Of a stretch of 64,000 nucleotides of DNA, positions 7,420 through 62,133 are shown in pieces. The stretch comes from Coniochaeta sp. PMI_546. Lineage: Eukaryota > Ascomycota > Sordariomycetes > Coniochaetales > Coniochaetaceae. A model generated the notes under the pieces. That model ran no database searches and had not been told where the DNA came from. It saw only the letters and a list, made by a program, of their open reading frames with translations. The position numbers were made by a program, and so were the translations under genes. Where the stretch lies: positions 558,001 through 622,000 of the forward strand of contig MU271144.1 of assembly GCA_021432605.1 (NCBI GenBank). Reading direction: 5' to 3'. Position 1 is the first letter of the stretch, and every line of letters starts with the position of its first letter.

Positions 7420-7931
7420 CTTGCTTCCATCCAGTCGTGGGCCAGAGGTAATTCGTACTTGTGTAGCAATGTTTCGCGGTTTGGGAGAGAAAGCAAGGTA
7501 GCTCGACGCGCTGGTGGTGTCTGTCCCTAGCTTGATGCGCGTGGCAGAATTTCTGCCCGCCTTTTTTCGAGCTTCATTGAGCTCAGCTGCCAGGTGACAA
7601 AGGTGTAAAATGCTTACCCCGCTAGATGCACCGTACTGCATATAAGCATAGACAAGCCAATCTCAAATCTGGTTCCCGAAAGCAACGCTTCTTGCTTCAA
7701 CGTCTGGGTTAGGGATGGATAATTTTAATGAGTTTTGGTATTACTGGAAGCGAATAGATACATAGAAGCTAAGTATGCAATGAGACTCCCAATCTCTGTA
7801 AATAGGGTCTGAATAACCCATCAAACGCCAGGTCCATATGCTAGCTCTTCAGTTGTTCCCCCCCGGTTCCACGCCCGTCATGAAGCCATCTAACATTAAT
7901 GCAAACATCTTCTCCGTCTCGTAGCCCTTGT

Positions 7932-43551: not shown

Positions 43552-44640
43552 ACAGAGTCCACTGGGATCTTTTCTTGACGGCAGACCGGAAAGGGGCCGG
43601 TGGCCGTAACCGGCTAGAACATGTCGCCGGTTAGTATTGTTATCTCTTATAACGCCCTGAGATTCCCAAGTCTGCTTGCATAAGGGTGACCCGCGACTTT
43701 GTCTATTCGGTATCGACGTTTAGCTACAGTTCTAGACAAGTGGATTGGCCGCCCTGGTTGCCTTTGGGAGAAGGCTGACCATCACAATGAGTGAGTGAAT
43801 ATCTTTGGACCAGCTCAAATTCTTTGGAGCTAATATGCAGCCCCTGGCCTCGGCAACTATCAAACTAAGACAGCGGGAGTCAAGGATGATTTGGTTCGTC
43901 TACGATCAACAAGGCGACTTGACAACGGACCCGAACGAGGATGTCTACAACTATATGTCATGACAACATCGAAAGAGCATTTCCATGCAGTCGCATCCCG
44001 TTGTCAATCATGAAAGATCTAGGCGTGGTCGCATGCGGGTCGACCGCCACCTCCATTTGGTGTGGTATGCTACTGCTTCCGGAATGAAGTAGTTGGCTAC
44101 TATGAACGTCTCGAGAAATAGTGGACCGTGAAGAGGATCAAGCCAGGTCATTCACTATGTAGGTGCCTCGATTAATTTCGAGAGGACCTGGCAGCTCAGT
44201 GATACAATCGACCTATGTCTACATCACAATGGCTAGCATAGCGGATGGAGGATGTATCTTTCAAATCCATAACAAGACTGGTCATATGATAATGTTACTT
44301 TACAGTCACAGCAAAGTCCACTTCTGGATTTATGTGAAAGTAATCGAGAGGTTAGAGCATATGGATCCGCGTCATTATACACTTACACGTTGAACAACAT
44401 CCTGGAGAGAGGTCGCTACAAAATAGATATCTCACCGCCTCTTTCTGCCGGCAGAATACTAAGGTCTAGCGGTTTACAGCGCTATTAGCGGTGACAGCGG
44501 AGTCATCCTCTGTAGGCGGTCGACAAATGAGTGGCTGGCTTAAAGCGGTACGTAACACGGCGAAAGCTGATGGGACACCCGAAAAGGCCCACCTCGACTA
44601 ATCACAGCAGATTCCCCGCGCCGCAAGCAAGCTTGTGTCA
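43552..44640. other. Intergenic, nothing recognised
   Basis: About 1.1 kb without a supportable gene; short open frames only. Confidence 0.4.
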
Positions 44641-44644
44641 TTTC

Positions 44645-44745
44645 AGGTCACCTCAGATCACCTTACATTACCTCAGAGCACCTCACATTACCTCAGAGCA
44701 CCTCACATTACCTTAGAGCACCTCACATTACCTCCGTTTACATCG
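44645..44745. repeat. Left array of 10/20-bp repeat (CCTCACATTA units)
   Basis: CCTCACATTA alternates with CCTCAGAGCA in a 20-base unit, with copies at 44671-44730 and variants on either side. It is the reverse complement of the array at 46.1 kb (AGGTAATGTG units). Together they form inverted brackets around the convergent gene pair between them. Confidence 0.85.
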
Positions 44746-44803
44746 GATCAGCTTTGTTTAGATCGATCTTACATCAACTATCTTGCCTGGAACAATCTTT
44801 AAA

Positions 44804-45397
44804 ATGACCCAAGCTAAAGCTCTACTTACTACAAGCGGCTTGATTAAGCTCCTCGAAGACGAACTCAATACGTACTCTAGCGAGTATTACCCACTTCATG
44901 CCAGTCGACTGAAGCGTATTGAAAAATGTTCAACATTAGTTGACGCCGACGCGGGTGAATTTCCCACCAATGTGCCAAAAAGAAGAGCACACTCAATTCT
45001 TCGCGACCTCTGGACATACGCTCCGCAAGTGTTCTTTCTGTGTGCCTCGGCAACCACACCAACTGATCTCGGCACCCTTAAGTCAACTGATTATATGTCG
45101 TCTGTCGTACGGTGGTGGAAAGATGTCGAAGTCCCTGAAGGACTGACGAAGACGATTGATAATCATTCGGATATCCTGCCAACCGACTCGCGCGACAAAC
45201 GGCAAATTCGCCAAACAGTGTCCTCTGCAGAACTGCTCGGCTTTCTTCTTAGAAGTTTTGAGGATAAACAGGTGGAATTGACTCTTCCATTCAGTGGACA
45301 GCCGTTGCCTTTTGTTAGACTTGATGAGCATACGAAGATAGAGTTGTCTTGGACATTGGTCAAGTCTTTTTTAAACAATAGACAAACTAGTACCTAG
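44804..45397 (+). CDS. Unrecognised 197-residue protein of a convergent gene pair
   Basis: Open frame from ATG 44804 (MTQAKALLTTSGLIKLLEDE) with normal composition and no damage. The frame begins about 60 bases after the left repeat array. Hydrophilic, largely helical sequence, with WTYAPQVFFLCASATTP and SSVVRWWKDVEVPEGLTKTI in the middle. No signal peptide, membrane helix or known motif. Its 3' end overlaps the stop of the minus-strand gene by 11 bases. No function can be named. Confidence 0.6.
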   Translation: MTQAKALLTTSGLIKLLEDELNTYSSEYYPLHASRLKRIEKCSTLVDADAGEFPTNVPKRRAHSILRDLWTYAPQVFFLCASATTPTDLGTLKSTDYMSSVVRWWKDVEVPEGLTKTIDNHSDILPTDSRDKRQIRQTVSSAELLGFLLRSFEDKQVELTLPFSGQPLPFVRLDEHTKIELSWTLVKSFLNNRQTST

Positions 45398-45783
45398 TAT
45401 TTGTTCGTTTGATGAGACGAAACGATGGCGTCCCTAATATAACACAAGACTGTCCCTCCCCGATAGCAAGGATACAGTACCGTGCTCTCTTTCTTGGACC
45501 TGTTTCGACGTTTACGTCTCCATCCTCCGTTCCGGCCCCGATCGTCCTGACTGCTCCGGCACCGCTCTTTGTGAACACCAACACTCCGCAAACATCAGAA
45601 CCAACGGTCTGGTATCCTCCGTCGCCGATGATCTTGTTGTCAACGGTAACGCCCTCCCCGAACTATGGCAAACATTAGATTGAGTTTTTGAGAGTCTGAC
45701 AAGCCTTAGCATACCAGAACAGTGATCTTTTCGGTTAGCTTCTCTGCATTAGTCGCAGTATCTTCAGGGATGTATTCTGTCAT
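45387..45783 (-). CDS. Unrecognised 114-residue protein of a convergent gene pair
   Basis: Two exons, 45715-45783 and 45387-45662, joined in phase by a 52-base intron with GTATGC donor and CATAG acceptor. Exon 1 encodes MTEYIPEDTATNAEKLTEKI; exon 2 a Gly/Val/Thr-rich, beta-like domain (FGEGVTVDNKIIGDGGYQTV, then TIGAGTEDGDVNVETG). No signal peptide. The clean splice and the switch from an acidic helix to a compact beta-rich part argue for a real gene. The 3' end overlaps its plus-strand partner by 11 bases. Confidence 0.6.
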
Positions 45784-46080
45784 GTCCGCCGTTCGTCGAA
45801 TGGCCTTGGAGTGACAGGTATGGCGAGGAGGTCTTAAAATTTCGTAGTCGAGATACCCCGCGCTGGCTGTGCAATGGTCTCTTATGCAGGCTTGGATGCA
45901 TGGATGTTCTGATGGCTTTCTCGGATTGAGAAATGACTCACTTGACGACTTAACAAGGTCAGGCTGGTAAATTGATAACAGGCAGAGACATGCAGTCGGT
46001 ATTGCTGCCCGATCGAGCGGGAGAAGTCTGAAGCATGAAGGGTGGCCAGTTGCGCGGGGAATATAGGTGGGGTTAATATG

Positions 46081-46230
46081 AGTTAAGCTGAGTTAATGTG
46101 AGGCGATAAAAGGTAATGTAAGGTAATGTGAGGTAATGTGAGGTAATGTGAGGTAATGTGAGGTANNNNNNNNNNAGGTAATGTGAGGTAATGTGAGGTA
46201 ATGTGAGGTAATGTGAGGTAGTGTGAGGGA
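46081..46230. repeat. Right array of 10-bp repeat (AGGTAATGTG) with assembly gap
   Basis: At least twelve AGGTAATGTG units, the first few imperfect, interrupted by ten N at 46166-46175. The gap marks a stretch the assembly could not resolve, so the true array is probably longer. It is inverted relative to the array at 44.65-44.75 kb. Confidence 0.95.
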
Positions 46231-47047
46231 CCTAGATATAACTTACAGGTGTAGGAGTGACTTGTGGAACTGGTTATGCTGCGATGAACTTCACGACAGG
46301 TATCATCTGCACAACACCCCGTGGGCGTGTATGGTACTGACCAACGTACTTAGAGACCTGGCGACTGCCTAAGCACTTGAAATTGGAAGACTCGACTATC
46401 GGAGTATAAGAACTAACTCAAATCCATTAACCCATCTGTATCATTCCATATTCTCCTCTCAAGAGCTAGATACATTTCTATCACATGCCGTACGTGTTGG
46501 AAGGAAGTTGCCATTGAGTCGGTCGATGCCAGTGATCAGCTGCGTCAACACTTCCTGAACCGAGAGCAGGACGGCTTTCCCGCAAATCCCATATCTTCCG
46601 TCAGAGATTCCAGGTCAGTACCATTATACCCCAGCAATGACGGATGAAAAGCCAATAAATCTTCATTAGTCAGTCACCATGTGTCTCAGAATCTGGCACA
46701 GTTACGCCTGCGGATGTGTGCTTATTCAATCGACGATTACTTGCGATGTACCAGGTGTTTCAACCCACATAATTCAGGATCTTACACAAAACTTTGCTGG
46801 GCGGTGTCCCGAACACTCATTGCCCACCCCCCCGGGAGATTGAGGGAGCCATACATCCATGTGTTACGTTGGGGCTGCAACTTGATTTTGGCGGCTGAAA
46901 CCTGAAGAAGGTGGGAGGGATTTAAGCGTTAGCGTGGAAACGTAGACAGCAGTTAGCACTAAAGAAGAATGTTTCGACACTACCATCTCGTCCCGTAGCC
47001 CCTCCGCACACCATCGATTTGATTGAAAACGGGGCTGTTTCCTCTCC
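46231..47047. other. Intergenic, upstream region of the next gene
   Basis: About 800 bases with short open frames only; no motif recognised. Confidence 0.4.
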
Positions 47048-47650
47048 ATGCTACCGCAACTTCTATCCTGCACCGACCTTACGCGTTATGGCATATCCGC
47101 TATGGCTACTCGCGTTTATGTGACCTGCTTATCCGAGCTGATTCCCGGCAATGCTACCGAGCGGAGAACGACGATGGCAAACATTATATGCGAATTTCAA
47201 TTCAAACGAGACTTCGACAAGAGCCACGATAGTTTGCAATCATTTGGTCAATACGCGGTCGACGGTTCGCGATGTCATCTTCTTGTCGATGTCGGTCCCC
47301 CGGGCGCAGACGAGTATGACTTATACTGGTACCATTGGGATGGGAAGCAACTGTGAGTTAGTCATCAATTTGTTGGGTATCTATCTTCGCTAAGGGCCCC
47401 TAGCATCGAGCGGACAGTGACGCCACCGCTCATCTGGCACATGAAGAAGTACTACCCATTCAATCCGATGCCGAAGCCTCTCCTCAGCGACAATGATCTC
47501 AAGGTTCGCTTGGGCGAAGACGGGTACAAGAAAATTATATCAAGCCGAATAGAGCAGAAGCGCAAGTATGGCATCGACTTGTCCCAAGAAGATAAACAGT
47601 TCCTTGGCGAATACCCGAACATGACCTGTGAGGTGGGAAGAAGACGATGA
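47048..47650 (+). CDS. Unrecognised protein, two exons, about 183 residues
   Basis: Exons 47048-47352 and 47404-47650 join in phase through a 51-base intron (GTGAGT...CCTAG). In-frame ATGs at 47102 and 47174 are alternative starts, giving 165 or 141 residues. The middle (CHLLVDVGPPGADEYDLYWY) and the second exon (RTVTPPLIWHMKKYYPFNPM, then YKKIISSRIEQKRKYGIDLS) are hydrophilic with a basic helix. No family is recognised. The open sequence in another frame to about 48.0 kb may be a further exon, but no clean junction was found. Confidence 0.5.
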
Positions 47651-48501
47651 GGGACGTGATGCGGGGCGGTCTATGGTGACGTCACCTGAGTCTGGCTGGT
47701 GGAAACTGCACCGGCCCGGGACGGAAGCGGTGTCTGTCTCAGAGTCCGGTGTCAGCACATCAGGGTGCATTTGCACCTCTGTGAGCCATGGATATCTTCG
47801 CCGTCACTGGCGGGAACCTGTCACATCACTGCCTTTCTATTGTTATACAGTCGATGGAAATATATCCTGGGGAGAAACCGGGGCTCCCTGTTGGCAAAGC
47901 GAAGCTGCCAGACCGCCTGCATACCCACATTGTTTCACCTTTATGATGCTTCGAGCTCTGGGCTCCGCGTTTGTTTGTTATAATGTTTTGTATGTGATAC
48001 CGCAGCATGTACCGTTGTCAAGCCAGCGTCCACTGTAAGCTTGGTTTCCTTTCTGGTTTTGTTGCAACTTTAACCGGGTCTGAGGGTTCTAAAATGCTAC
48101 CGTCAGCAGCACCAACCAAGAAAGATAGAAGTGCCCAAGAGCACGATTTGGGTAGCAATATATTCGATCTTGATGTCTTTCGCTTGACAAGCCTTGCTGC
48201 GCAGTGTTAGGCTGTCGCACGAGTCCATCTATGCACCCAGTTCAGTGGATCTGGGATGTATATAGTACGTCCGGGTTCGGTCATTTGTTGTCCCGCAATG
48301 ACCTGTGGTGCCACGCGACAAATCCGCCCCACTACTCCACAGATCCTCGAAGGTGGCATGCGGCCCATTACCTTACCGTGTTTTCGAGTTAGGATCTTGG
48401 CTCCCAGCATACCGCGCTTCATTCAACCTTCACTACGCTTGCGATGCTGAGGACTCTTCACATTTGCAGATGGAGGTAGCGTTATCATCTATTCGCGCAG
48501 T
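47651..48501. other. Intergenic or unresolved downstream exons
   Basis: About 850 bases. A frame at 47628-48038 is open but unrecognised. The rest shows no gene. Confidence 0.35.
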
Positions 48502-49069
48502 ATGCTAAACTACGAACCTTTCAGTCTCTCGACTGAAGCTCGGGATTTGGCTCGCCATGCGACTCAAAGCCTGACTGGCAAGAAGCACAAGCCCGCCATG
48601 CATATCTTCGTTTACGCTTGGCCTTCACAACTCGAGCAACTAGCACGGCAAGTGGTTAGGTTGGACCTGGTATGTAGAAGCCCATATAGCTGCGGCGTGT
48701 TGAACTGACTCACTACAGGCTGGCAAATTGAAGGGTTGGAGCCCAGTCATCACAGTCACGAAATGGGCTGTAACTCTGGAGCGGGGTCATTCGCTTTTTA
48801 CCCCTGCCGGTAAAAGGAGCATAATTGTCGATATAGAAGAAGAAGGCGTCGAAGGGCAGGTCGCAATATATAAAGGAGAAGAGGACCATCAGGAGGTGGA
48901 TTGGCGGTTTGGCGTAGGTTATATCTTGCAACAGTCCGTTTCGATTCGAGCTCTTGAGCACGATATCACCATGATGTTGCTTGTGCTTGCTCCGAAGTCT
49001 CAAGGGACTAACGGAAGTCAAGATAGAGCCGAGCACATACCCGGCAGCCAATCGACAGTGGAAAGTTAA
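48502..49069 (+). CDS. Unrecognised 172-residue protein
   Basis: Exons 48502-48669 and 48719-49069 join in phase across a 49-base intron (GTATGT...CTACAG). Starts MLNYEPFSLSTEARDLARHA. The second exon looks beta-rich and acidic (RSIIVDIEEEGVEGQVAIYK) and ends in a polar tail. No known motif. Its stop lies 4 bases from the stop of the minus-strand gene at 49074, a very tight tail-to-tail arrangement. Confidence 0.65.
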
Positions 49070-49073
49070 GTGG

Positions 49074-51134
49074 CTACTCTAGAAACACATCATCCCAAAT
49101 GTTCTCTTTGTCCGTGTCGTTCTCTGTGTCCGTGTCATACGTTATGTTGTTCATGTTATCTGGTCTCTCTTCCCAACTCGGTTCACCCTGGTCCATCCTT
49201 GGGTTTTGTCCGGTGGCCGGCCCGGCTCCGGGCTGCGCTGGCGCTCCAAGCATGAGTCCCGGATCGCCCATTGGGCCGAACCCTTCCCTGCTGCCTCTCT
49301 GACCATCACCAAAGCAACTCGTGTCGGAAGTCGTATCACAGTTCTGCTCTGCCGCAGCAAGGAGTAAATGAAAGGGGGAGGTGGATCCCCCGGCCGAAAT
49401 ATTGAAGTCCCTCTCGCGCAAGTGTCCCAAGCCGCACGTCGAATGGGTTTGGTTCAGGTTGTACCCGGGTGGCTCATCAGAAAGCTCACTACCAGCAAGC
49501 ATCGGCTGGACACTCGGCAATAGGCCATCCTCAAGGTGACGTGAAAACACAGCCGTGGGGCATGCGGCTTCCCTTCCTGCCAGCCACCCTTGAGTGAGGC
49601 CTTCAAGAGGCCCTTGGGCTGCTGGCCTCTGGTCAGGCAAATTCGAGACTCTGTCATGTCCTTGCCCCTCTGCAGTTGGCTGCGTCTTCCGTCGTTTCGC
49701 CCGCGGATCATGGACTGATGTCGTCGATTCGCTGCGATAGTGCTTGCTGTTGTTGATGGGTCGGAACTGTGTCGTTCTGATTTCCTCCGAGCTGCATCTT
49801 GTGGTAGATCCGCTCAAGGTAGGCGGGCTTGCATCTATCAGAGAAACAGGAGATGGCGGACATAAGGGACCTGCATCTCTCGGGGCCGGGTCGGTCCCTT
49901 TGGGTAGCGTTTGGCTGCCTGGTATGGCACTTCCCTTGCCATCAGTTGCAACTGCGACGTCCTCACTAGTGGCGGGTGAACTTGCTGAGGTGCTATTTTG
50001 AATGCGACAGGCGACGAGCTTTCCCGAAAGCAGTACCCCCTTCCACGATTGGTACTCTTCATCGCGGCTGAGAAGAGTTACGCCTAGCGCCTTGCAAATC
50101 GTCGAGACTCTACGAAATCATTAGCTGAGAACACTGTAGCGTTCGGGCATCTCACCTCCATCGATCGCCAGCGAATATTGCGACACAGAACGGGAGATAG
50201 AGCGGCAGGGAGGCTTGTATTTCGGCCGGAACTTTGCATCGAGGAATGTTGTCCGTGAAGAGCTTCATCGGTTCGCCTTTCTTTGGAAGCCTATTATAAA
50301 AGTGAAGACTCTTGCCCTCTGTGATCATGTTAGTACCTGAGGAAGGACCAGAGCAATCGCCTTACCATTGAAGAATAGCTCAAACGCTCGATGTTCAAGC
50401 CCACGTTCGAATTGGCGTTGCTGTTCTTGGACGACCCATTTTACTGTGGACCGACACTTGCGGAGATGCGTATTCGCTGCAGTACACTTTCCCTTTCCCT
50501 GACTCGCCGCTAGGAACTCCCGTTGGGCTGCAGCTACCAAAGGCTCCGGATGACCTGCGTATAAAGCTACGCAACATGCTGCAGTGAAGACGAGCGACAT
50601 GAAGTGGGAAAGGTTGCGTTCAAATCGCGACTTCACCATATGAGAGCCGACATTTCGCGCCATCGACTTCAGAGTCTCTTGTAGATCTGGGTATGTGGTG
50701 TGGTCCGGGATGACGAGACTGTTGTCGCTTAACGGCTGTATTGAAAAGCGCCTAAGTGCGCGAAGTATGTCGGCGGCACTGGACATGCCAACGCTCTTCC
50801 TCTTGACACCCCACTCCTCCTCTGATGTAGGCATATCCTTGATAAATGCTGCTACTTCATTGTCCGAATCTCTGGACATACTGGTTGATGGCAGACTTTG
50901 CTTGCGATCGACGCTTGGATCGAAGCTCTCGAAGGTGGTCGTATCATGGTCTGGAGGTGATGTCGGGTACTGGATCCTGGACGAGGGTACGCTCTCAGTT
51001 TGTCGTATCTTTGTCACCTCCTCTTCGAGCCATTGAGTACACTGGCGCAATACATCTTTGTTGACGAGCCCGAGAAGGTAGCCTGCGTAGGCGTGGGCAT
51101 CACCACTAAACCCATCAATTCGCGTTACCGACAT
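49074..51134 (-). CDS. Unrecognised 655-residue fungal protein
   Basis: Three exons, 50366-51134, 50156-50318 and 49074-50109, joined in phase (1968 bases). Start chosen at MSVTRIDGFSGDAHAYAGYL; an in-frame ATG at 51197 would add 21 residues. The N-terminal half includes a helical region (KSRFERNLSHFMSLVFTAAC, then HRAFELFFNEGKSLHFYNR). Exon 2 encodes IPRCKVPAEIQASLPLYLPF. After LGVTLLSRDEEYQSWKGVLL comes a long disordered Pro/Ser/Thr/Asp-rich tail with a basic KRRKTQP patch that could be a nuclear signal, ending in DTDTENDTDKENIWDDVFLE. No family recognised. It may work with its tail-to-tail partner, but only proximity suggests so. Confidence 0.7.
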
Positions 51135-51207
51135 TATAAAGGGATGCGAGGAGGACAGAGGCGTGGTGAAAAGGATTATTCCTGCCTGAAAAGACATTGT
51201 GGGGATG

Positions 51208-51250
51208 CGCTAGTCCTGATCGGTCGCGCCTTCGAAGGCGCGACTAGCGC
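51208..51250. repeat. Large palindrome, copy 1
   Basis: A perfect 22-base core centred on TTCGAA (51223-51244; inner part TCGCGCCTTCGAAGGCGCGA) lies inside outer inverted arms GCGCTAGTC (51208-51216) and GACTAGCGC (51242-51250). The core is identical to that of the palindrome at 57.26 kb. It sits about 75 bases before the start of the 655-residue gene. Confidence 0.9.
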
Positions 51251-52028
51251 AGTAATCAACATTGGGGAACTAATATTCTCCCTTTCCTTGAAACTTAAAC
51301 TGAGCCCATAAGCTCGTGCTCACTCTACTAATGTGAAAGCAGGTTTGCTCTTCATCTGGGGACATGTAACTGAATAGATCGGTCCCGTGAAATAGATCGC
51401 CTGCAAGGCAACACGATCGCCTGCAAGTCATATCTGGTTGCCTTACCCGGCTGTTCCTCTGTGCACTTGTGCAAATGTCGGGAGACAAGCAGTGACCCCG
51501 GCGGTCTGCAAAGTGGTTCGCAATGCAACGTGCGTCCTGAGCTCTGGCACAGTATTATATATGTAGCGTGTAGCTCGCCAGGACCATCGAGACGTGGTTC
51601 CTAAATGTGATACTCAGTGCGATGTCCTCCATACCTCCACTTTTTGTACACATGGACGCTCGTTCGATGGACTCCTTGATCGAGAACCTCTATATGGCGT
51701 AGCCCCGAATGCTGTTCGAGAGATGGGGTTCGGGGTACGCTGGGTGCTGCCACTTATGCAGTGGTGGCACCGCGAATCAGGTCTGATCCCGCACAAGCTA
51801 CCATGGTATCGATGTCAGAACCCTTCTTCAGATTTGCCTCCCAGTTGACGTGTCTCCAAAGATCCTACCCTCCTTTGGATTATATATATACAGCACTTTC
51901 TTCTCACGGTCATAGTATGAAGTATCTTGCCCACATTAACTGATAACAAACCTCCACTACACACGAGATTCGCATTCTCCTCACCGTCCGAGTTCTTCTA
52001 CTTCCCACGAGACATCGGACTTCTCGAG
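51251..52028. other. Intergenic, divergent promoter region
   Basis: About 780 bases between divergent genes. Contains a doubled word GATCGCCTGCAAG (near 51397 and 51415) and otherwise nothing recognisable. The plus-strand leader of the next gene lies at the right end. Confidence 0.45.
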
Positions 52029-53703
52029 ATGACGACAACTACGGACACTTCGCAGGTCGGCGAGCTGTATCTCGATAGCGCACTACCACAGCGACCATAT
52101 GGGCATGCAGCTGTTATGCTACTACGGCCTAGCACAGCTTCTGGGATACCAACGACGGGTGTACCGCACCATATTAGCCCTGAGGAACCGCAGAAGAACC
52201 CGACTTGCCACAGAGCACCCAAGGATAGTCAAGCCGTGGGGGCAACGTGCTCTCGGGATGAATTTGTCAAGAGCTTCCGCCGGCACATAGAACCCACGTA
52301 TCCTCTCATCATGCCGGGCCAGCTTAAGGAAATCATGTCGTCCATCTACGACACGGACAAGACATCCGTTCCGGCAAAGCGGAAGAGACGGGAGGACGCG
52401 GAGAGCAAGGACGTCGTCGCACTGGTTGTGCTTGCGTTGGGCGCGTCCTGCCGCCCTGGCAGTGGTAAAAGGGGCTGGACGTACGCAGACGAGGCTCACA
52501 CTCTCGTTGGAAGCTTACATTCTAGTGCAGGGAGTCTGAACTATATCTGGGCCAACCTACTTATGGCACTCTACGATGAGTTGTTTGGCAGTCGACAAGA
52601 AAGTATGGACTTTGCCGCTAACGCTGGAAGAGCTTTACAGCAGCTCCTGACATCAAGGTTCGCGAATCTTAAAGGACAAGAAGAGGGGGCAATCTTCACT
52701 TCGGAGCAGAACGAATTCCTCTTCACCAGCTGGATCTATCTCATGATGGAGAGGTATGACTTATGTACACCCACTCACATGCTTCTGCTGATCGCCTCAG
52801 TGACCGTCTTGTCGCGCAAGAAGATAGCCGGATTGTAGGCCAATCCTTGCTGTGGGCGATGCCATACCCGAATGCTCAATTGGCTACCAAGCAAGGCCTT
52901 GATGAGCGAGTTGGCTTCGAATTCTTGGACCGTGTGTGGCTATGTCGTCGGAAGCACGAGGCAGCATTCAGAAAGTGGCCAAGTGAGCTCGACACGGTCT
53001 TCAACCTCGAGCAGCTGTTCGAACCGTTGGAGAGTAGCGCGTTCCATGCTTCTCCGACCAAAGCACTAGACATCTTGCTTGCACAGGCTCAAGCCACATA
53101 CTGGGATGCGAAGGCGGACATGTACGCGTCATTTGTCTCTCGAATCTGCCGCAAGGATCCCATCTTCGGAGCCGTCGACATCGAACTTGGAAGTAGAGGC
53201 GTGCGTGCTCTAATTAAGAGTGTAGAAGCTCTTAATAAGAGTGTCGAAGCGATCAGCACCTTCCCGAGCCAGTCGCTGATCGTACCCAACATTGTTCGCA
53301 TCGTTTATAGGTATGATCCTCTATCGTGTCTTCCATCAAGATGTTGACTGGTAGCAGTCAAATGAAGAATCTACTGCTTTTGGGAGACTGTCACAGGAGT
53401 AGGGTGCTCAGGAACTGGGTCACTACAGAGCAACTTGAGGAGATTTTAAATCGCACGATACTGTTCTTCGAAGCGGTGTGTGCAGGACCAGGCTCTCTGT
53501 CTGTCAATCTGGATTTCGTGGCGCCTCTGAAAGAACAGGTACGATCCCCCAACGCCGGTCGAAACGACTTTATCGGTCGCGACGCACTTCATGCCCTATT
53601 GGTGAAGGGCAACGTTGGGTACTCGTCAATGGGTTACAGCGGGTCATTCGCTGACGGTGATGATGACTCACGGCATGGGGATGAGGCGGAGATTGGAGAG
53701 TAA
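52029..53703 (+). CDS. Fungal transcription factor-like protein (MHR/Fungal_trans core, no Zn2Cys6 cluster)
   Basis: Three exons, 52029-52753, 52801-53310 and 53355-53703, give 527 residues with in-phase joins. DEFVKSFRRHIEPTYPLIMP (about residues 80-100), ALVVLALGASCRPG and the helical array NYIWANLLMALYDELFGS, then NEFLFTSWIYLMME, match the order seen in the middle homology region of fungal transcription factors. A KRKRRED patch could be a nuclear signal. No N-terminal Zn2Cys6 cluster is seen in or directly upstream of the frame, so it may be a regulator without its own DNA-binding domain or a truncated one. It lies between two copies of a palindrome and next to methyltransferase genes. Confidence 0.6.
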
Positions 53704-54302
53704 ACACACCACGCGATGGGAGGTGATTTCCTAAGGCGTAGCTGTATATTAATGATGTTTCTGAATATGCCATTACTCGTACTCTTGGTGGCTTCTAAGC
53801 AGCGAAGGGTAAGCTAGCACAATTATGGCAAGTTGCGCGTGGTTCTAAAGAATTCTCAAAGCAACCCTCTAGTCAATATAATCATGCTTGCATGTACTCG
53901 ATAAAACTTTCGTTGGAATCCAATGTCTGTACATATTCAGCAAGGGCAACCTATCTCTCCGTCTTGCGCATGTCCAGTCAGATTATTCTTGGAAGACTCT
54001 CAGCTTGGGGTGCAAACCTGGCAGTGGAGCTGGTCTCTGGCTAGCGGGGCAAGGTTGATCGTGGCTGTCTCGCTCGCCCCTCCATATAAAGACCCCATCG
54101 ACATCTCCCCGTCGAGTTTCCTCAGTGTGTCCCTTGCGTCCTCACTTGTTAAGACCGAGTTCTGTCCACTCAAGTCATTTCTTTACGGCGTCCGGCATCT
54201 AGATACTAGGTCACCTTGAGACACCTACAATATACATACCGCCGACCACGGAGAAGGGTTCCGACTTGGCCTGGGAGGCAACAACAGACGAGCCTTGTCG
54301 AA
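53704..54302. other. Intergenic
   Basis: About 600 bases with no recognised gene; a TATATAAAG-like word near 54085 and pyrimidine-rich sequence fit a promoter for the gene that follows. Confidence 0.4.
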
Positions 54303-55030
54303 ATGAGCATTCGAAAGGTCGGTTCCTACAGCAAAGGGCGTCCTTCAGAACCTCGCAGACATAGCCCTTATCCAAATCCAAGGCTCCCAGACACTCAGAA
54401 CCGGACGGGATCGCCTGCCAGGGATTTCTGGGTAGGATCAGCGGAAGATCTCGTCACCAGTCTCATAAAAGATACGTCACCGGATCCCGGAGTCCAGGTA
54501 GAAGACTCAGGACTAGTGCGACGCTGCCTTGACGAGCTTCTCCCACATGAAGTCCAGGCAATTGGGAAGTTCCAATTATGGAATAGGGGCATGGTCCTGG
54601 GCGAGCGCAAAGAGAGGGACGACCTCGCCAGGACGAAGTCATGTGATCCATGGCTTATCAAGGAGCGGTATGAGGTGTATGAGGAGAAGAATCCCGATAT
54701 CATCGCGCACCAGGAGAGAGCGTTTGTGCGTATCTGTATTCCAAAGGCCGTGTGTTGTACTAACGAAGGCAGAGCTCTTTGTTCAAAGCCATCCGTGAAA
54801 GTGCGAAAGCACTTGGTCTCCCAACGGTGGCAATGGAAGCACAAAACAGCCTGTCGGAGATTTACCAGGCTAACTTGGCGGCAGAGAGTTCCGAAAAGGA
54901 ACGTTTTGAGGCGGAAATGGCACGAATGAACATCCAGGAGGTCAGCACTCGCCCAAGTGAAGCAGGCAGTTCAAGGCTATTGATAGCAGGGCACAGCGTG
55001 CTTGCCGAAGACGATGCCGCCGGTGACTGA
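54303..55030 (+). CDS. Unrecognised 226-residue protein with C-terminal coiled coil
   Basis: Exons 54303-54725 and 54773-55030, joined in phase with a GTGCGT donor and CAG acceptor. An earlier in-frame ATG at 54216 would add 29 basic residues. The first 60 residues are Arg/Pro/Ser-rich and disordered. The middle is charged and helical (SLIKDTSPDP, LDELLPHEVQAIGKF, then LIKERYEVYEEKNPD). The second exon forms an amphipathic, coiled-coil-like helix (ANLAAESSEKERFEAEMARM). Soluble; no known family. Confidence 0.6.
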
Positions 55031-55404
55031 CTCCATCGTACTCGTCGCGCCAGCAAGCAGCAGCGCCCAAAGAGCGAATCTGTGGTCAATGTAATGTTCA
55101 ATATCGCGAGTGTTGATCAGCAAACGCGGATAGAGACCGTTATGGCGCAAACCGCAGATTGTATTATTGTCTATTAATAGAGTGAAAAACTGATAAAGAG
55201 AACCAACAAGCTAGCCCACTGCTCAATTTGTTTCTATGAAGGGCGATGCCTTTGTGGTCACGCTCATCATTTGAAATGGAGACTTGTTAAAGAGGCTTTG
55301 AAATGAAGTGTTAATACACGCCGCGTTAGATATCCCAACCCTGCCACCCTGCCTCCCAGCACGTGGGCCGTCCTTATTCAGTCTGTGGCATGAGTTCTAA
55401 CTGC

Positions 55405-56617
55405 TCACGATGGGCTCCTGCCAATAACGACAACACTGCCAACAAGGTCAGTTAACCTCATCTGGAAGTGTGGTTTGACACTCACATTTCAACAACAACG
55501 TTGTGGCAGTCTTGGTTGAGTTCATATCTGAGCTTGTCGATGAAAGCATTATGTTGCTTGGCCTTTACGCCCGTCATGGAGTGGTGATAGGTGACAATTC
55601 CAACGATCTTTTCAATGACGACGAATCGCAGATCCTCCATCCAAACTTCCGTTCCGGCAATTGGGGTGGGGAAGCGATGTGTGTAGAAGATTTCGAGGCC
55701 AGCTGCTTTCATCCAGCTTTTACACTCTTTCAAGTCGACGTGAAATGTCCGGCGTGTGTTACCTGAAACCTTTTTGATGAATTGGGAAGCCATTTTCCAT
55801 GGACCAGGAATAGCGGAAACTTCGTGGTCCTTCACGAATTCTAGAGATATATCGAGGTAGTGGGCGTATCCTCGTGGTGTCAATCGGGGCCTGGCACGTT
55901 TCATGAAGTCCGACCAATTGTCGATGCATCCATTCAGCCCGCGCAAATGGATGTAGTCGAACTTCTCTGATGGCAAATCAATATTGGCGTCGCCGATATA
56001 TCGTATGACATTCTCGGGAATTGGTCTTCTGAAGTTGAAGACATCCATCGCGAATATGGTTGCCTCCGGAAACCGTTGGGCAACCTCGCTACAGCCATCA
56101 GTCAGAACGGGGCAGGGTTGCGTGAGTTGCAGAAAGAGCTTACCCAACCCAAGTGCAAAGGCCGGCACCAACGGCCAGTATCTTGAGGTCTGAATGCCTG
56201 CCTAGCAAAGTACGCATCCAATATTCAGTCTCAAGGTTAGGAAGCCCACCCAAGTGACGATAGAGCTTTTCTCTGTGTGTTATTAGTAGTCAGTCATCTC
56301 CTGCTTTTAAATGAGGATTGTGGTCTACTAACTGTTTGTCCATAACGAGTTGTGCCTCCTCGTCAACAGCGAACCTTGAGATTGTTAACGCAACTACAGA
56401 TCCAACGCGTGGAAGTCGGAACTTACACACTGAGCCAGTCGGCCGGATACTCTCTGCCAAGTTTCGTGATCGTTCCTCCAGGGATGGAAGAAACTTGAGG
56501 ACGTCGTCTGTGTGTACATCTTAGGTGAACGTTTGTCTCTGTAGGCGAAGGGAGCAAGAACGACTTGTTTTCCGTCCAGGCGGCAGGATCCCCGAGAAAA
56601 TCAGCGTTGCTACCCAT
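55405..56617 (-). CDS. LaeA-like SAM-dependent methyltransferase
   Basis: Five exons, 56427-56617, 56333-56374, 56144-56272, 55486-56088 and 55405-55435, sum to 996 bases and 331 residues. Motif I is KILAVGAGLCTW (about 108-119), where most relatives have an acidic D-LG-GTG start; here it is AVGAG. Post-I AQRFPEATIFAMDVFNF, then KFDYIHLRGLNGCIDNW and RGYAHYLDISLEF complete the Rossmann methyltransferase pattern. The start is chosen at MGSNADFLGD; exons further upstream are possible. Family members such as LaeA influence chromatin and secondary metabolism, but the substrate here is unknown. The exon structure and several motifs mirror the methyltransferase at 57.5 kb, so the two are diverged paralogues in divergent orientation. 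Confidence 0.8.
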
Positions 56618-57256
56618 CTGTGGGGGGGACAGCGATGTGCTGTGCCTTTCATGACTGGCACGCGACGAGACAAGGCGTTGCGGATAGTTGTCCTCGCTGG
56701 TAAGTCGGACCTGTCTCTCGAGATCTCGGCCAGAGCCCTGTGAATGTGGATAGCATTCCTTCCTAGTGGAAAGGATCTGTGCCGGCTGGACACGAATGAC
56801 CGGAAAACAAGACTGTCCATCTGTCAGCAAACAACAGGAAATAATAATAGTTCACTTGAATGCCCGAATACTGACAAGGACTGATCTCAGCCATCCTTGG
56901 ACGGCGGAAAGCCTGGCCGATAGAATTCCATTCAACATCCTATGCGAACAATCTGGTACATCGGATTGCAGATGAAGAAGGGAGAAATGATCAGGAATCA
57001 AATATCAAGTGGGAAAGCCGGGAGGCTATTTGACTAGCTGATGATTGCCTTGGTAGCATGGGTGCGCCGTAAGGATGAGTATGGGATGTAGGCTTGGTCA
57101 GGTCCCCGGCAGGGGTTAACAGACTAAAGAAACCAGGCTCCGCAATCTCCTTCTCAGGACAACTATTGGTTCCCAAGTGAGCATCATGCTGCGTAGAGAT
57201 CCCGCGTGGTGGTGATACACATAGCAAGTGCCTGCCAGGGGGCGTTCAGGTGTAAT
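56618..57256. other. Shared upstream region of the methyltransferase pair
   Basis: About 640 bases before the palindrome. Short minus-strand frames here could be an upstream exon of the leftward methyltransferase, but no junction is convincing. Confidence 0.4.
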
Positions 57257-57308
57257 CGCTATCCCCAATCGGTCGCGCCTTCGAAGGCGCGACCGATTGG
57301 GAATAGCG
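57257..57308. repeat. Large palindrome, copy 2
   Basis: A 52-base palindrome with one mismatched pair. 57264-57301 is a perfect 38-base inverted repeat centred on TTCGAA, with inner part TCGCGCCTTCGAAGGCGCGA, and the outer arms are CGCTAT and ATAGCG. It lies between the two divergent methyltransferase genes, about 210 bases before the start of the right one. It shares its core with the copy at 51.2 kb. Confidence 0.95.
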
Positions 57309-57514
57309 CATCTTAACAAATGCTTACCCTTAATGGTTGAGAGCGGCCGTCGATGAAATCCTGGGCATTCCTGGGCACAGTCATCTTCTGGTTACGAGGT
57401 TTCTTGCACACTCTTCAGTGTAACCTTTATTCGATCACCACGGTTTTGACGTTTACATATTTCCTTCCCGTGTGAGCTTGTGTCCCTCGATGTGCAGTTC
57501 TTCAACATTCGACA

Positions 57515-59938
57515 ATGGACATGCATGCTCCCGGAACGAATGGGTATAAACCAGGGAACCAGCAGAGCCACTCGGCCGGAGCAGCGCCCGGAAAAGAGAA
57601 AATGGAGCTCACCAGGTTCGCATTGGACGATTTCATCACCAGTGTTACTGTTTGGACTGAGCAACTGGTCCAGCTTCCGGACGAGATCAGCGAGCGGCAA
57701 GTGAACCTGGCTCGACTAAACCAGTCTCAGGAACCGGCGCCATTGCAGTCCAACTCGGTGAATGAAAATTCCGGTGTGCAGCTTAAGATCGAAGAAGGGC
57801 TTGGAGTAACAGCTTCGACCTCGACCAACACCCCTCAAGACCCGTTTCCAGATCCCTTGTATGGCAAGACGACTCCCTTGCGCTCAATGAGCCGGACATC
57901 TTCCCTCCCTCAGCGACGGACAAACATGAGCACGCCTATGCCGCTTGCAAAGGCAAAAGCTGCGGCACAGGAGCGCAAGCAAATTATCATCGACACGGCA
58001 GCGACAGGCGGAGCCACAAGCGCAGCGAACGATGTCTACTACGACGATATCACGCAGGATTTCTTTGCGAAGCTTATCAATTTCGCTTCGACATCAAGGA
58101 ATCAAATACGCAAGGCCGTAGAAGCGGCCATCGAGCCTCAGCTGAAGCGGCAGGTCGACTGGACTGAGCACGCCGAGCAACAGTATATGCAAACTTCAGA
58201 TGGAGCACAGGACCCTGACAAGCTGGAAGTCGACGACAAGCTGGAAGTCGACGACAAGCTGGAAGTCAGTGAGGATCCCGGAGCGACAACACCCAACGAC
58301 GGGAAACGAAAGCCACTTCACTGGCGGACGAGAATCCATAGTGCACTCAAGGGGTCGGAAAACAGCAATGTGGCTGTATTCGTCCTGATGGACCAGGCGC
58401 TCAGTTCGGTTCAGATGCTTGGAGTGACAGCCGCCTTTGACGTCTTGTCACACGGACATCGGGTTGATATCACGAAGATTGAGGAAGAGCTGCGAGTTAT
58501 CAAGGGTTTGGCCGTTGAGACGATGAAAAGACTCGACGGAGAAAGTCTACTTGAACGGTGGCACACAGAGGCCGTCTGTGCACATGCCCATATCTCACCA
58601 TCCAGCCTCTCTGATGAGCCCGCAGACGCCGTCATTCCTTCACGGGTGGAAAACAATGCGCACACCTCTGACACTTGGGCACTCACGGCGACAACATCGA
58701 ATGCAGCTTCAATCCGCGTCGATAGACAAACCCAGCTTACAGACAGTGGGAACTTATTCGAGGCCGCTGACTCGCAAATAACCCTGTGTGGTACAGGAAA
58801 TGCTTCTCTCGCTTCGTCAGATGCGAGCACTGATGCAGATTCCCGATATGGAAGGACGACTCTAAGGTTTGAGAGAGAGTACTCGAGCTACGGCTCCAGT
58901 CTGTAAGTCCTCTTCACACGCTTGTCTGTATCCAGTCAATGATTAATCAGTTCAAGGTTCGCTGTGGATTTGACTGGCAGAATGGTCAGGCGAGCTGAGT
59001 AAGTGGATCATTCCCCTAGCGAAACAGCAAGATACTGATATCTGGCAGATTTTGGTTTTATGAAGCCTGTCCAGGTTTCAGTTCTGAGTGCTCCACGAGA
59101 GTCTTGTCCTTGCATGAGCAGCCTAAGATCCTAGACCTTGGTGCTGGTGAATGCTTCTGGGCCAAGTAAGGCATTCAAGCAATCTATTACGGTGTCCTGG
59201 CTAATAGATTACAGCGCAATTGCCAGACAGCTGCCTAATGCAGAAGTTATCGGTGTAGATAGTTTCGATTTCGGTGTACCTTTTCAACGCAACGTCAAGT
59301 TATATATGCAAGACCCTAACACAAGCCTTCCATGGCCAGAGGGGACCTTCAACTATACCCTTCTACGCGGGCTTGGTGGTTGTATCAAGGACTGGCAATT
59401 CTTGCTCAAAGAGGTCTTCTCGTGCTCGCAGGATGGAGGATCCTGCATGTTACAGAACATGAATATTCTCTGGGTCTCCCCCGATGCGCGGATCGAACGG
59501 CCGGATTGTTTCAACATCATGGACACAGTAGCGAGGACAACAGGTATTGCAATCAATATTTCCTTAGAGGACGGCAGAAAATGGATGACAGACGCCGGCT
59601 TCGAGATCGCAAAGGATGAATGCGTGCCTTTCCTTTTCGATAAGATGTTGCAATGGATGGTCATCAACAAGTTCGCCGATATAGCAACCTCCTACTACTC
59701 AACGATCGAGGAATACAAGGCGTTCGTCTGGAAACTTGAACGCGAACTCGACTTCAGACAAATTAGGGTCGAAGTGTGAGTATCACCCTGATCTGGCAGC
59801 TTAGATAGCTTGACTAACGGGATTGGCAGCGTTAGACTCATTGGAAAGAAGGTCATCAGAGAAGCTGTCGACGCCTCTCACGAAGAAGGTTCAGAGTGCG
59901 CTGGGAGAAACAGGATGCCAGGATCAGAAACTGCATAG
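57515..59938 (+). CDS. LaeA-like methyltransferase with long N-terminal extension
   Basis: Five exons, 57515-58902, 58951-58998, 59049-59165, 59215-59775 and 59830-59938, sum to 2223 bases and 740 residues. The first 460 residues are an extension mostly without known domains: a helical start (LTRFALDDFITSVTVWTEQL), Ser/Thr-rich linkers, DDITQDFFAKLINFASTSRN, three DKLEVD repeats and another helical part (SSVQMLGVTAAFDVLS). The C-terminal 270 residues are the methyltransferase: FAVDLTGRMVRRAEFWFYEA, motif I KILDLGAGECFW (about 505-516), PNAEVIGVDSFDF, then TFNYTLLRGLGGCIKDW. All splice phases agree, which supports a single fused product. It could methylate a protein or metabolite; the extension may recruit a partner. 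It is paralogous to the gene at 55.4 kb. Confidence 0.8.
58217..58266. repeat. 18-bp tandem repeat, about 2.8 units, in frame
   Basis: GACAAGCTGGAAGTCGAC occurs twice exactly, followed by a partial third unit, encoding DKLEVD repeats in the N-terminal extension of the methyltransferase fusion. The length is a multiple of three. Confidence 0.95.
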
Positions 59939-62133
59939 CTATATGGTGGAAGACTGAATGGAGAAGCCTCTCTGAAATTTCAGTTATAGAGGCTATCTCC
60001 TCATGTGGTACGGCATGGAAAGGACCTATAGTATTAGAGTATTCGTGTATGTATGTTACATTCTAGCTATTATCAAGTTGGTCAAGACCACGTCCTTTGT
60101 TTACGGCGTGAGTAGCATGGAACGGTTGCCGTTGGACCGATGTCGTTGCTGACTGTAAACAATACAAGCTTCTCGTGGTAAGTTTGTCCCGCTGAAGACT
60201 GTACGATAAAGGGGCGTAATATTCATATACCAAACCTACGTGTCGTACCGTGAATGGGGAAGTATCAGTACCGGTACTGGGCATAACTGCCCTTTCAGAC
60301 AGTATGGTGAGCTGGAGATTGGTTAAGTCGCTGCCCCAATACCTTTCGTCGATTATTCGGCCCTAGCACGTATCGTCGGGCAATTTGCGCCATCACAAAT
60401 CTTTACCTCGACATACCTCCATTACGCGATCAATGATATCACGATCGTTGGTTGAGCCATGGCAGAGCCATTGCCATGCGCTAATTTCTGTCTCTGTTGG
60501 AGGACGCGACAATCTCCTTGCAGATCTGGGTTCTGATAGACCAAGTCAGTGCTTGGAGGTGCTGGCCTCCTCTGCGGCCAAAGATGGTCGTGGTATGAGC
60601 TCCTCAGCCCCAACCAGGTAGAATGGATATCTCGCGCCAATCGTGATTAGGGTTGCCTATGACGGCCTGGTACACTACGCCGGAGATGCTACCTTATACA
60701 CCATTATGATACGTCACGACATATCAACCCGGCACGCTTCGTCGGGCAGTTTGATATAGTACGCCTTACCGGGCAACTTGCCACTGTACTCTTCGTCAGG
60801 CTGGCTACCCCTTGCAATCAGAGTAATGTACCTAACTCAGACTTCTATTGCCGTGAAGAGTACTTTTCTGGTGACGTTATAGATTGTAAGAGATTTGGTC
60901 AGACCGCTATTGCGCACGTCTCGGCACGATGCTACCCCAACTACTAGTGTACCTTATATTAGTCACTTAGGTTTTCTAGTCTCAATAAAGTCCTAGCCCA
61001 ACCGGTCAAACTACCCGATTCAAGGCTATGTATGCTCGTACACATTGGACTGACGTTAGCTGGTAAACAAGTCGTAGCCTACGGAAAGCCGCGAAACCAG
61101 GGCGTAGCTCGTCGCACTTCTACCAAATTATCAGTCTGGGAATCGCCATTAAGATAGCGGTACAAACTCTAGTCATTCCGGAACCGCCAGGTAAACGATA
61201 ACTGGCCGAAATATCCTCGCCCGGCCTAAATGAGAGCCTTATGAGAAAGGCCACTTTATGTATACCGCGGTCTTGTCTTTTGCGGCCTACCTATGGTACA
61301 CTCTAAATTACTATAGGTTCTAGGGTGCAATCCCGGCGTAGTCAGTCATCTAACAACTTCCTTAGATTGACTATCGCGAGAGCGGTATGATGGCGGGGCG
61401 ATGAGGGAAACAATACGGCTTAACAAAGCGGCCGTCGCTCTAGGCTGTTCGCCCTACTTGAAAGTATATATATAGCATCCTATCATAACTAGGACCGACT
61501 GCTTTCTATATCTCTAGTTTCTACTATTTATTACTTTATCGATCCTCCTCTATTGAATCACATATACCTATACCAGAACACACCTATGAGAAGTACAAAA
61601 GGTATATCCCTCGTACATTTATTTCTCTTGGACTTGCTAATTCAGAATATAGAAGATATGTCAATATATCGTACAAGTATATACTTTCGCCAACTATAAG
61701 GACGAAAATGCCTACGCGGTAGAGACTAAGCGGAGGTTCGACTGGGCTAGGGAGTGCCCTTGGCCAGATCCGTGCCCCCTACCGAAGGACGGCAATGGTT
61801 TATGCATAAATGCGACAATAGTACAACGGACACTCTATACTCCTTCGACAAATCCCTAGAGCCCCTGTGTTATGTGCCATGGTTTCGTAGATGATAGCAG
61901 GGGTAGAACCCGGGCTGCTTAATACATCGTCTACTTGTCAGCTTTGGAAAGGCGTGCTCTTCCCGCTTTGGCCACTTACTATAGGGAAGACGCTCTCACG
62001 ACATAGAGGATCACGTGCTGAGCCGGTCATTGGTGTACGTAGTCCAAATACAAAAAGGGATCCTTCCCCCCCTTTTAAAGGTAGGACGGATGCTTACTAT
62101 TATAGCCCTCATCTTTCTCGAGGTCACAATACA
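59939..62133. other. Transition into a second RIP-damaged block, no gene recognised
   Basis: 59.9-60.6 kb has normal composition. From about 60.65 kb the sequence becomes TpA-rich with stops in all frames, and no domain could be recognised. No terminal repeats or transposon genes were seen. Confidence 0.4.

Follow-up and report, generated by a model that had tools for sequence, protein, structure and literature searches.

The stretch of Coniochaeta sp. PMI_546 analysed here (the window, 64,000 nucleotides, C2:558001-622000 in a genome of 33,477,513 bases and 24 contigs) contains two palindromes, P1 and P2, that share an exact 20-base core (TCGCGCCTTCGAAGGCGCGA) and lie about 6 kb apart in two divergent promoters of one gene cluster, the C2 cluster. 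A paralogous cluster on contig C3, the C3 cluster, has palindromes in the same two promoters, built on a different core. We tentatively favour the reading that the two pairs are cluster-private operators of a symmetric (dimeric) regulator, with binding inferred from the sequence, and that they diverged jointly once the cluster had been duplicated. The use of the same two promoters in both paralogues, the sharing of letters within but not between clusters and the failure to find any further copy argue for selection on cluster-wide recognition.

It has long been asked how regulatory circuits escape cross-talk after duplication, and the arguments mostly come from single binding sites. In the present case, two versions of a circuit with paired sites coexist in one genome, the palindromic core being common to the two sites of a version and differing between versions, and only one version has a regulator with a DNA-binding domain. 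If the operator reading is true, direct tests become possible both of the insulation of paralogous circuits and of how eukaryotic promoters keep their palindromes perfect.

Paired palindromes in two paralogous clusters

P2 of the C2 cluster pairs at 25 of 26 positions over 52 bp, with the inner 38 bp perfect, and has a foot (GATTGGGAATAGCGCATC) that extends to 57312. P1 of the C2 cluster combines a perfect palindrome of 22 bp with 8-base outer arms (TGCGCTAG and CTAGCGCA, at 51206-51213 and 51244-51251) that are displaced by one-sided extra bases; its right outer arm is short by about 11 bases and its foot (GATGCGCTAGTCCTGATC in plus-strand reading) lies on the left, at 51204-51221. The longest exact match between P1 and P2 is 26 bases and, within one cluster, the likeness ends at the element (2 kb compared around each site). 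Allowing up to 3 mismatches, the core is matched twice in the window, compared with a mean of 0.01 in shuffles. These observations bear out the sequence-only reading of this DNA, made before the present analysis, which had described a shared core in a 22-bp perfect and a 52-bp near-perfect palindrome and had considered such symmetry hard to obtain by chance; the regulator, ORF (open reading frame) of unknown function and methyltransferase that it placed in the bracketed 6 kb are likewise all there. The second cluster, the specificity of the cores to each cluster and the absence of a zinc cluster from the window's regulator, all described below, had escaped it.

A genome search for the foot led to C3:578 kb, where a similar foot (CGGGAATAGCGCATT) comes immediately after a different palindrome (ATTAGTTGGCGGCCCATGGGCCGCCAACTAAT). 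This element, P2 of the C3 cluster, is flanked by genes paralogous to the methyltransferase and the right gene of the window, and the window is colinear over ~43.5-64 kb with C3:565-584 kb. At the place corresponding to P1 lies GTTGGCGGCCCAGGGGCCGCCAAC (C3:572354-572377, or L071:7354-7377), in which all but two central bases are paired, while P2 of the C3 cluster is perfect over its inner 32 bp. The elements measure ~50-60 bp and have repeated GCTA/TAGC ends. In both clusters P1 separates the left gene, on the minus strand, from the regulator gene, on the plus strand, and P2 separates the methyltransferase (minus strand) from the right gene (plus strand). P1 is 89 bp (C2) or 77 bp (C3) from the conserved start codon of the left gene and 785 or 788 bp from the start of the regulator, and P2 is 206 or 344 bp from the start of the right gene. 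The placement upstream of genes, which had been suggested as a check, is thus the same in both clusters, at two divergent promoters; the earlier description of short upstream regions between divergent genes stands as to divergence but is loose as to length, the intergenic region of P1 being ~0.9 kb (start codons 51134 and 52029).

Over their whole length, the two C2 elements align better in opposite orientation, which would agree with palindromes that bracket an inverted segment or mark a replication, recombination or chromatin feature. However, for the C3 elements the same orientation gives the better alignment, the genes of C2 and C3 are colinear, and no recombinase was recognised in the 20 ORFs scanned with Pfam. 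We consider such a structural role very improbable.

The cores are specific to the cluster. P1 and P2 of C2 have identical cores, whereas P1 and P2 of C3 share another, with one central base different, such that their longest uninterrupted match is 12 bases. The 18-base feet are broadly alike and do not group by cluster: agreement is 15 of 18 between P1 and P2 of C2 and also between the two P2 elements, 14 between P1 of C2 and P2 of C3, 13 between P1 and P2 of C3, and 11 and 10 between P1 of C3, the most diverged, and P2 and P1 of C2. Counted from the centre, the innermost 15 positions of the half-palindrome differ at 8 between the two P2 elements, and yet in both elements the arms are perfect there. 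If positions changed independently at 0.35 substitutions per site, 16 or 19 pairs would all remain paired with a probability of 6e-5 or 1e-5. What likeness remains between the halves is slight (7 of 15, permutation P 0.09), and it is therefore possible that the core was replaced rather than changed stepwise. The distance from centre to foot is 16 bases in one P2 element and 17 in the other, which, in perfect palindromes, implies a change in both arms. As to the suggested recent origin or selection, the two positions are old, being occupied in both paralogues (synonymous divergence 0.65-1.08), while it is the core sequences that differ between the paralogues.

Both cores are rare. A genome-wide pattern search for the C2 core returned 2 exact places and 2 further places with 3 mismatches (reversed control 1), and for the C3 core with up to 3 mismatches exactly 2 places (control 0). 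Perfect palindromes with arms of at least 10 bases (spacer at most 2) were confined to the four elements in 263,056 bases from 57 places, the next best having arms of 9; this sample is non-random, with many places taken from pattern searches, two overlapping by ~0.8 kb and duplicate loci dropped. For comparison, 1.92 Mb simulated with the dinucleotide content of the window contained perfect palindromes with arms of 8 (26 cases), 9 (2) and 10 (1). No perfect palindrome with arms of at least 10 was present at the distant right-gene homologue (C2:3.088 Mb) or at seven further methyltransferase homologues (L064-L070, ~1.5 kb each side). Imperfect inverted repeats do exist elsewhere: L068:2562-2604 scores 11 and L071:917-987 scores 13 with a 15-base spacer, equalling or exceeding P1 of C3, which scores 11 on this looser scale. 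In C3, L071:917-987 and 1056-1077 hold repeated AGGGTCATGGATTCATGACCCT-like inverted repeats whose sequence is unlike that of the elements. A search for cores of the form TCGCGCC-N0-12-GGCGCGA gave one extra place, of 14 bases and without the centre; on each strand the total was 3, as it was for the control. A covariance model built from the two C3 elements and applied to 114 kb placed both C2 elements directly after those two, P2 of C2 with E 4.8e-05 and 2.5e-04 on the two strands and P1 of C2 with only E 0.44.

This distribution bears directly on whether the palindromes are two insertions of a small foldback or MITE-like (miniature inverted-repeat transposable element) mobile element, as had been proposed from the sequence. 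Their palindromic structure, length and repeated ends are consistent with such an element, as are the matches to two loose element patterns, CCCAATCGGTCGCGCCTT and CCGATNRGGAMTAGCGCATC, each with 26 places in the genome against 11 for the reversed control. However, there are two copies per core in 33.5 Mb, not the hundreds of scattered copies expected of a MITE, and a genome count of the core, likewise proposed earlier, found it at 2 exact places only. A DNA search with an 80-base query around P2 of C2 found no third copy, although its sensitivity is limited, as the same tool missed P1 of C3. The foot GGGAATAGCGCATY, with at most 1 mismatch allowed, is found at 12 places compared with 13 in the control; the 2 exact ones are the P2 elements, and the 10 inexact ones have no palindrome alongside. 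The examined loci of the loose patterns (20 of 26 for CCCAATCGGTCGCGCCTT, 12 of 26 for CCGATNRGGAMTAGCGCATC) show no palindromes beyond those already described, P2 of C3 (L040) among them. By eye, no consistent target duplication was seen at the four elements. Copy number and homologous placement in both paralogues led us to reject a mobile element, which we regard as highly unlikely.

Proposed operators and competing explanations

In the operator reading, a dimeric regulator bound to P1 and P2 would jointly control both divergent promoters of the cluster. After the cluster duplicated, the operator core and its reader would have changed together, such that each cluster may now answer only to its own regulator. 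The reader in the C3 cluster is probably the adjacent regulator of the Gal4 (Zn2Cys6) type. This protein of 654 amino acids (NCBI protein BR93DRAFT_935213) contains a Zn2Cys6 cluster (PF00172, Zn_clus, E 2.5e-10, L071:8426-8590) and aligns to GAL4 over the DNA-binding domain (E 0.0039); a search for protein relatives returned only itself, and its gene was found in the genome only in the C2 and C3 clusters. Both C3 elements contain CGG-N8-CCG (at 572359 and 578134), which the C2 cores lack. By pattern search, each core is present at 2 places in the genome, both of them promoters of its own cluster, and a Zn2Cys6 regulator is encoded in the cluster for the C3 pair but not for the window pair. 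The reader in C2 would need to be a protein other than the cluster's regulator; by analogy, the window pair would work like a Zn2Cys6 operator, but we do not assign it to that family. Among the options that the sequence-only reading had listed, binding sites for a dimer are best supported, given that each divergent promoter has a single palindrome, that neither core was found elsewhere in the genome and that the paralogous cluster has the same placement.

Several observations weigh against operators. The C2 regulator keeps the initial MTTTTD of its C3 paralogue (a weak N-terminal match, E 0.08, falls exactly at that spot) and is 55% and 34% identical to it in two exons downstream, but no zinc cluster was found for it by a six-frame motif scan of the window or by tblastn at the locus, and it thus has no such domain with which to read its own palindromes. 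The spacing CGG-N8-CCG recurs at 5 other places in 22 kb of C3 and at 22 in the window, hardly above other spacings. Three of the four elements have eroded outer arms, and P1 of C3 is mismatched at its centre. No such palindrome is found at the other promoters of the cluster, those of the ORF at 54210 and of the second methyltransferase. A dimer site needs 10-20 bp, and the perfect symmetry of both P2 elements (38 bp in C2, 32 bp in C3) is longer than that, so fold-back copying and a hairpin role are serious rivals.

It is possible, though on balance unlikely, that template switching between arms and short conversion tracts between nearby copies keep the palindromes perfect and the cores alike, with little or no function. 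Such copying would extend symmetry to positions that no dimer would need. It is also consistent with the paired changes between the arms of the two P2 elements, with the one-base shift between centre and foot, and with the form of the P1-P2 identity in C2, a 26-base patch amid unlike flanks. Mutations that extend the arm identity of quasi-palindromes have been described in highly transcribed yeast DNA (PMC3820800). However, a general process of this kind would be expected to make perfect palindromes common, and in the (non-random) sample above there are no others with arms of at least 10; nor does it explain why the same two promoters keep palindromes in both paralogues. In our estimate fold-back copying accounts better than operators for length and perfection, but not for the restriction to these promoters.

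Transcription of the elements as self-complementary hairpins, as a switch in the 5' untranslated region or as a source of small RNA, could explain both length and perfection and the restriction to promoters; the core of P1 would have to match that of P2 because one targets the other. The predicted folds are strong (listed here for P2 and P1 of C2, then P2 and P1 of C3), at -44.6, -27.0, -32.3 and -30.9 kcal/mol, with z-scores of -8.8, -4.6, -5.7 and -3.3, and 0, 0, 0 and 1 of 200 shuffles each folding equally well. The perfect match of 26 nucleotides between P1 and P2 of C2 is in the length range of small RNAs, and P1 is just 77-89 bp from a start codon. On the other hand, z-scores are similar when the elements are folded as single-stranded DNA (-9.3, -4.7, -7.0 and -2.9), a scan of the window at Rfam gathering thresholds returned 0 families, and P1 and P2 of C3 have no more than 12 uninterrupted bases in common. 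We consider a hairpin RNA rather unlikely.

A broader view, about which we are doubtful, is that the palindromes are a self-complementary address code in which base pairing itself, together with the likeness of a cluster's two sites, is selected. The letters could then turn over almost completely, and the code could still be read inside each cluster but not by its paralogue. Its reader might be a hairpin- or cruciform-based or RNA-guided switch, or a regulator co-evolving fast with its operator such that the duplicates insulate themselves. No description of this element was found in the literature among titles and the openings of abstracts, which does not by itself show that it is unpublished.

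Genes of the cluster and divergence of the flanks

The genes around the elements are listed in Table 1. The model of the left gene was derived from the C3 paralogue and a Canariomyces protein, and a further exon is likely between its first and its last, the latter with a basic KRRK stretch. The gene belongs to an orphan family for which 10 protein relatives were found, in Canariomyces and in metagenome records, and the predicted structure is all-helical with a mean pLDDT (predicted local distance difference test) of 50.5. No relatedness between left and right genes was detectable (hhalign probability 0.2%, two sequences each), and no protein relatives of the right gene were found among 8000 candidates scored. 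The methyltransferase is predicted to have a first exon upstream of its main exon. In C2 the examined exons of all four flanking genes are open, while two stop codons interrupt the right gene of C3; an intron might remove them. A second methyltransferase of the same family, at 59135-59779, is 30% identical to the first, and the C3 cluster lacks one at that place.

Table 1. Features of the C2 cluster, in positions of the window
Feature	Position	Strand	Remarks
Diverged island	44100..60000		~45-75% DNA identity to C3; sharp edges; flanks mostly 78-88%
Left gene	49077..51134	-	first coding exon in 50325-51134, last in 49077-50117
P1 of C2	51204..51251	-	22-bp perfect palindrome 51223-51244; core 51224-51243
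Noncoding block	51339..51525		76% identity to C3 in the otherwise poorly alignable region between left gene and regulator
Regulator gene	52029..53703	+	three exons predicted; introns ~52754-52800 and ~53311-53357
ORF, function unknown	54210..54929	+	no C3 counterpart found
Methyltransferase, main exon	55482..56201	-	Methyltransf_23 (PF13489), E 7.2e-05, below cut-off
P2 of C2	57257..57312	+	52-bp palindrome 57257-57308; core 57273-57292; foot reaching 57312
Right gene	57515..58906	+	orphan; 38% identity to C3 paralogue

The noncoding block near P1 contains repeated GATCGCCTGCAAG-like words and is a candidate additional control region. Upstream of the C3 regulator (L071 ~7684-7741) there are tandem TCGTTCGCAATG-like repeats; no such array was seen in C2.

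The cluster lies in an island that is strongly diverged from C3, with parts hardly alignable and ~1.4 kb almost without a C3 counterpart. Outside it, the stretch at 63-64.5 kb falls to 68-76% identity. Synonymous divergence is 0.65-1.08 for the island genes, compared with 0.31 for the kinase and 0.50 for the SIR2 gene of the right flank, and the cluster has therefore either evolved more quickly than its flanks or predates them. The right flank of C2 (60000-64000 and the start of L042) looks mutated by RIP (repeat-induced point mutation), with transitions that have A/T in C2 outnumbering the reverse by 238 to 77 and by 225 to 112, and in-frame stops are present in C2 in the kinase (6) and the SIR2 gene (4), with none in C3.

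Colinear paralogy extends over ~47 kb, from window position 27156 to ~10 kb past the right end, against C3:548-593 kb (sampled stretches); C3:527001-529000 had no match in C2:548001-632000. The two copies lie at a similar distance from their contig starts, and this is a large segmental or wider duplication. A hybrid genome might be behind the paralogy; in the parts of PMC6757388 that concern it, PMI_546 is a relative of the hybrid Coniochaeta 2T2.1 and is not itself called a hybrid.

Comparison with known systems

The correction of quasi-palindromes by template switching (PMC3820800) resembles the present case in that arms are made identical and changes are paired. It differs in that, here, palindromes are confined to two promoters per paralogue and are common to sites 6 kb apart. 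MITEs and foldback elements are similarly short, palindromic and able to form hairpins, but the elements described here show no dispersal, a conserved homologous position and no target duplication visible by eye.

Diverged haplotypes, or idiomorphs, are known at mating-type and allorecognition loci. The C2/C3 island is similar to these in being a sharp block of low identity between better kept flanks, and is unlike them in that a single genome contains both versions, each on its own contig. Among the ORFs scanned with Pfam, none was recognised as a mating-type or allorecognition gene.

For the reading that we prefer, the comparison is with the operators of cluster-specific fungal Zn2Cys6 regulators and with consensus sites of the AflR, GliZ and Gal4 type. 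The palindromes differ from these in the extent of symmetry (32-52 bp vs 10-20), in the presence of the motif at two promoters only and in the different cores of two paralogous clusters; in C2, moreover, the regulator is without a zinc cluster. The likeness consists of a palindromic motif in divergent promoters of a cluster that also contains a regulator gene and, for the C3 cluster only, of inverted CGG triplets (at a spacing not particular to the elements) together with a PF00172 regulator.

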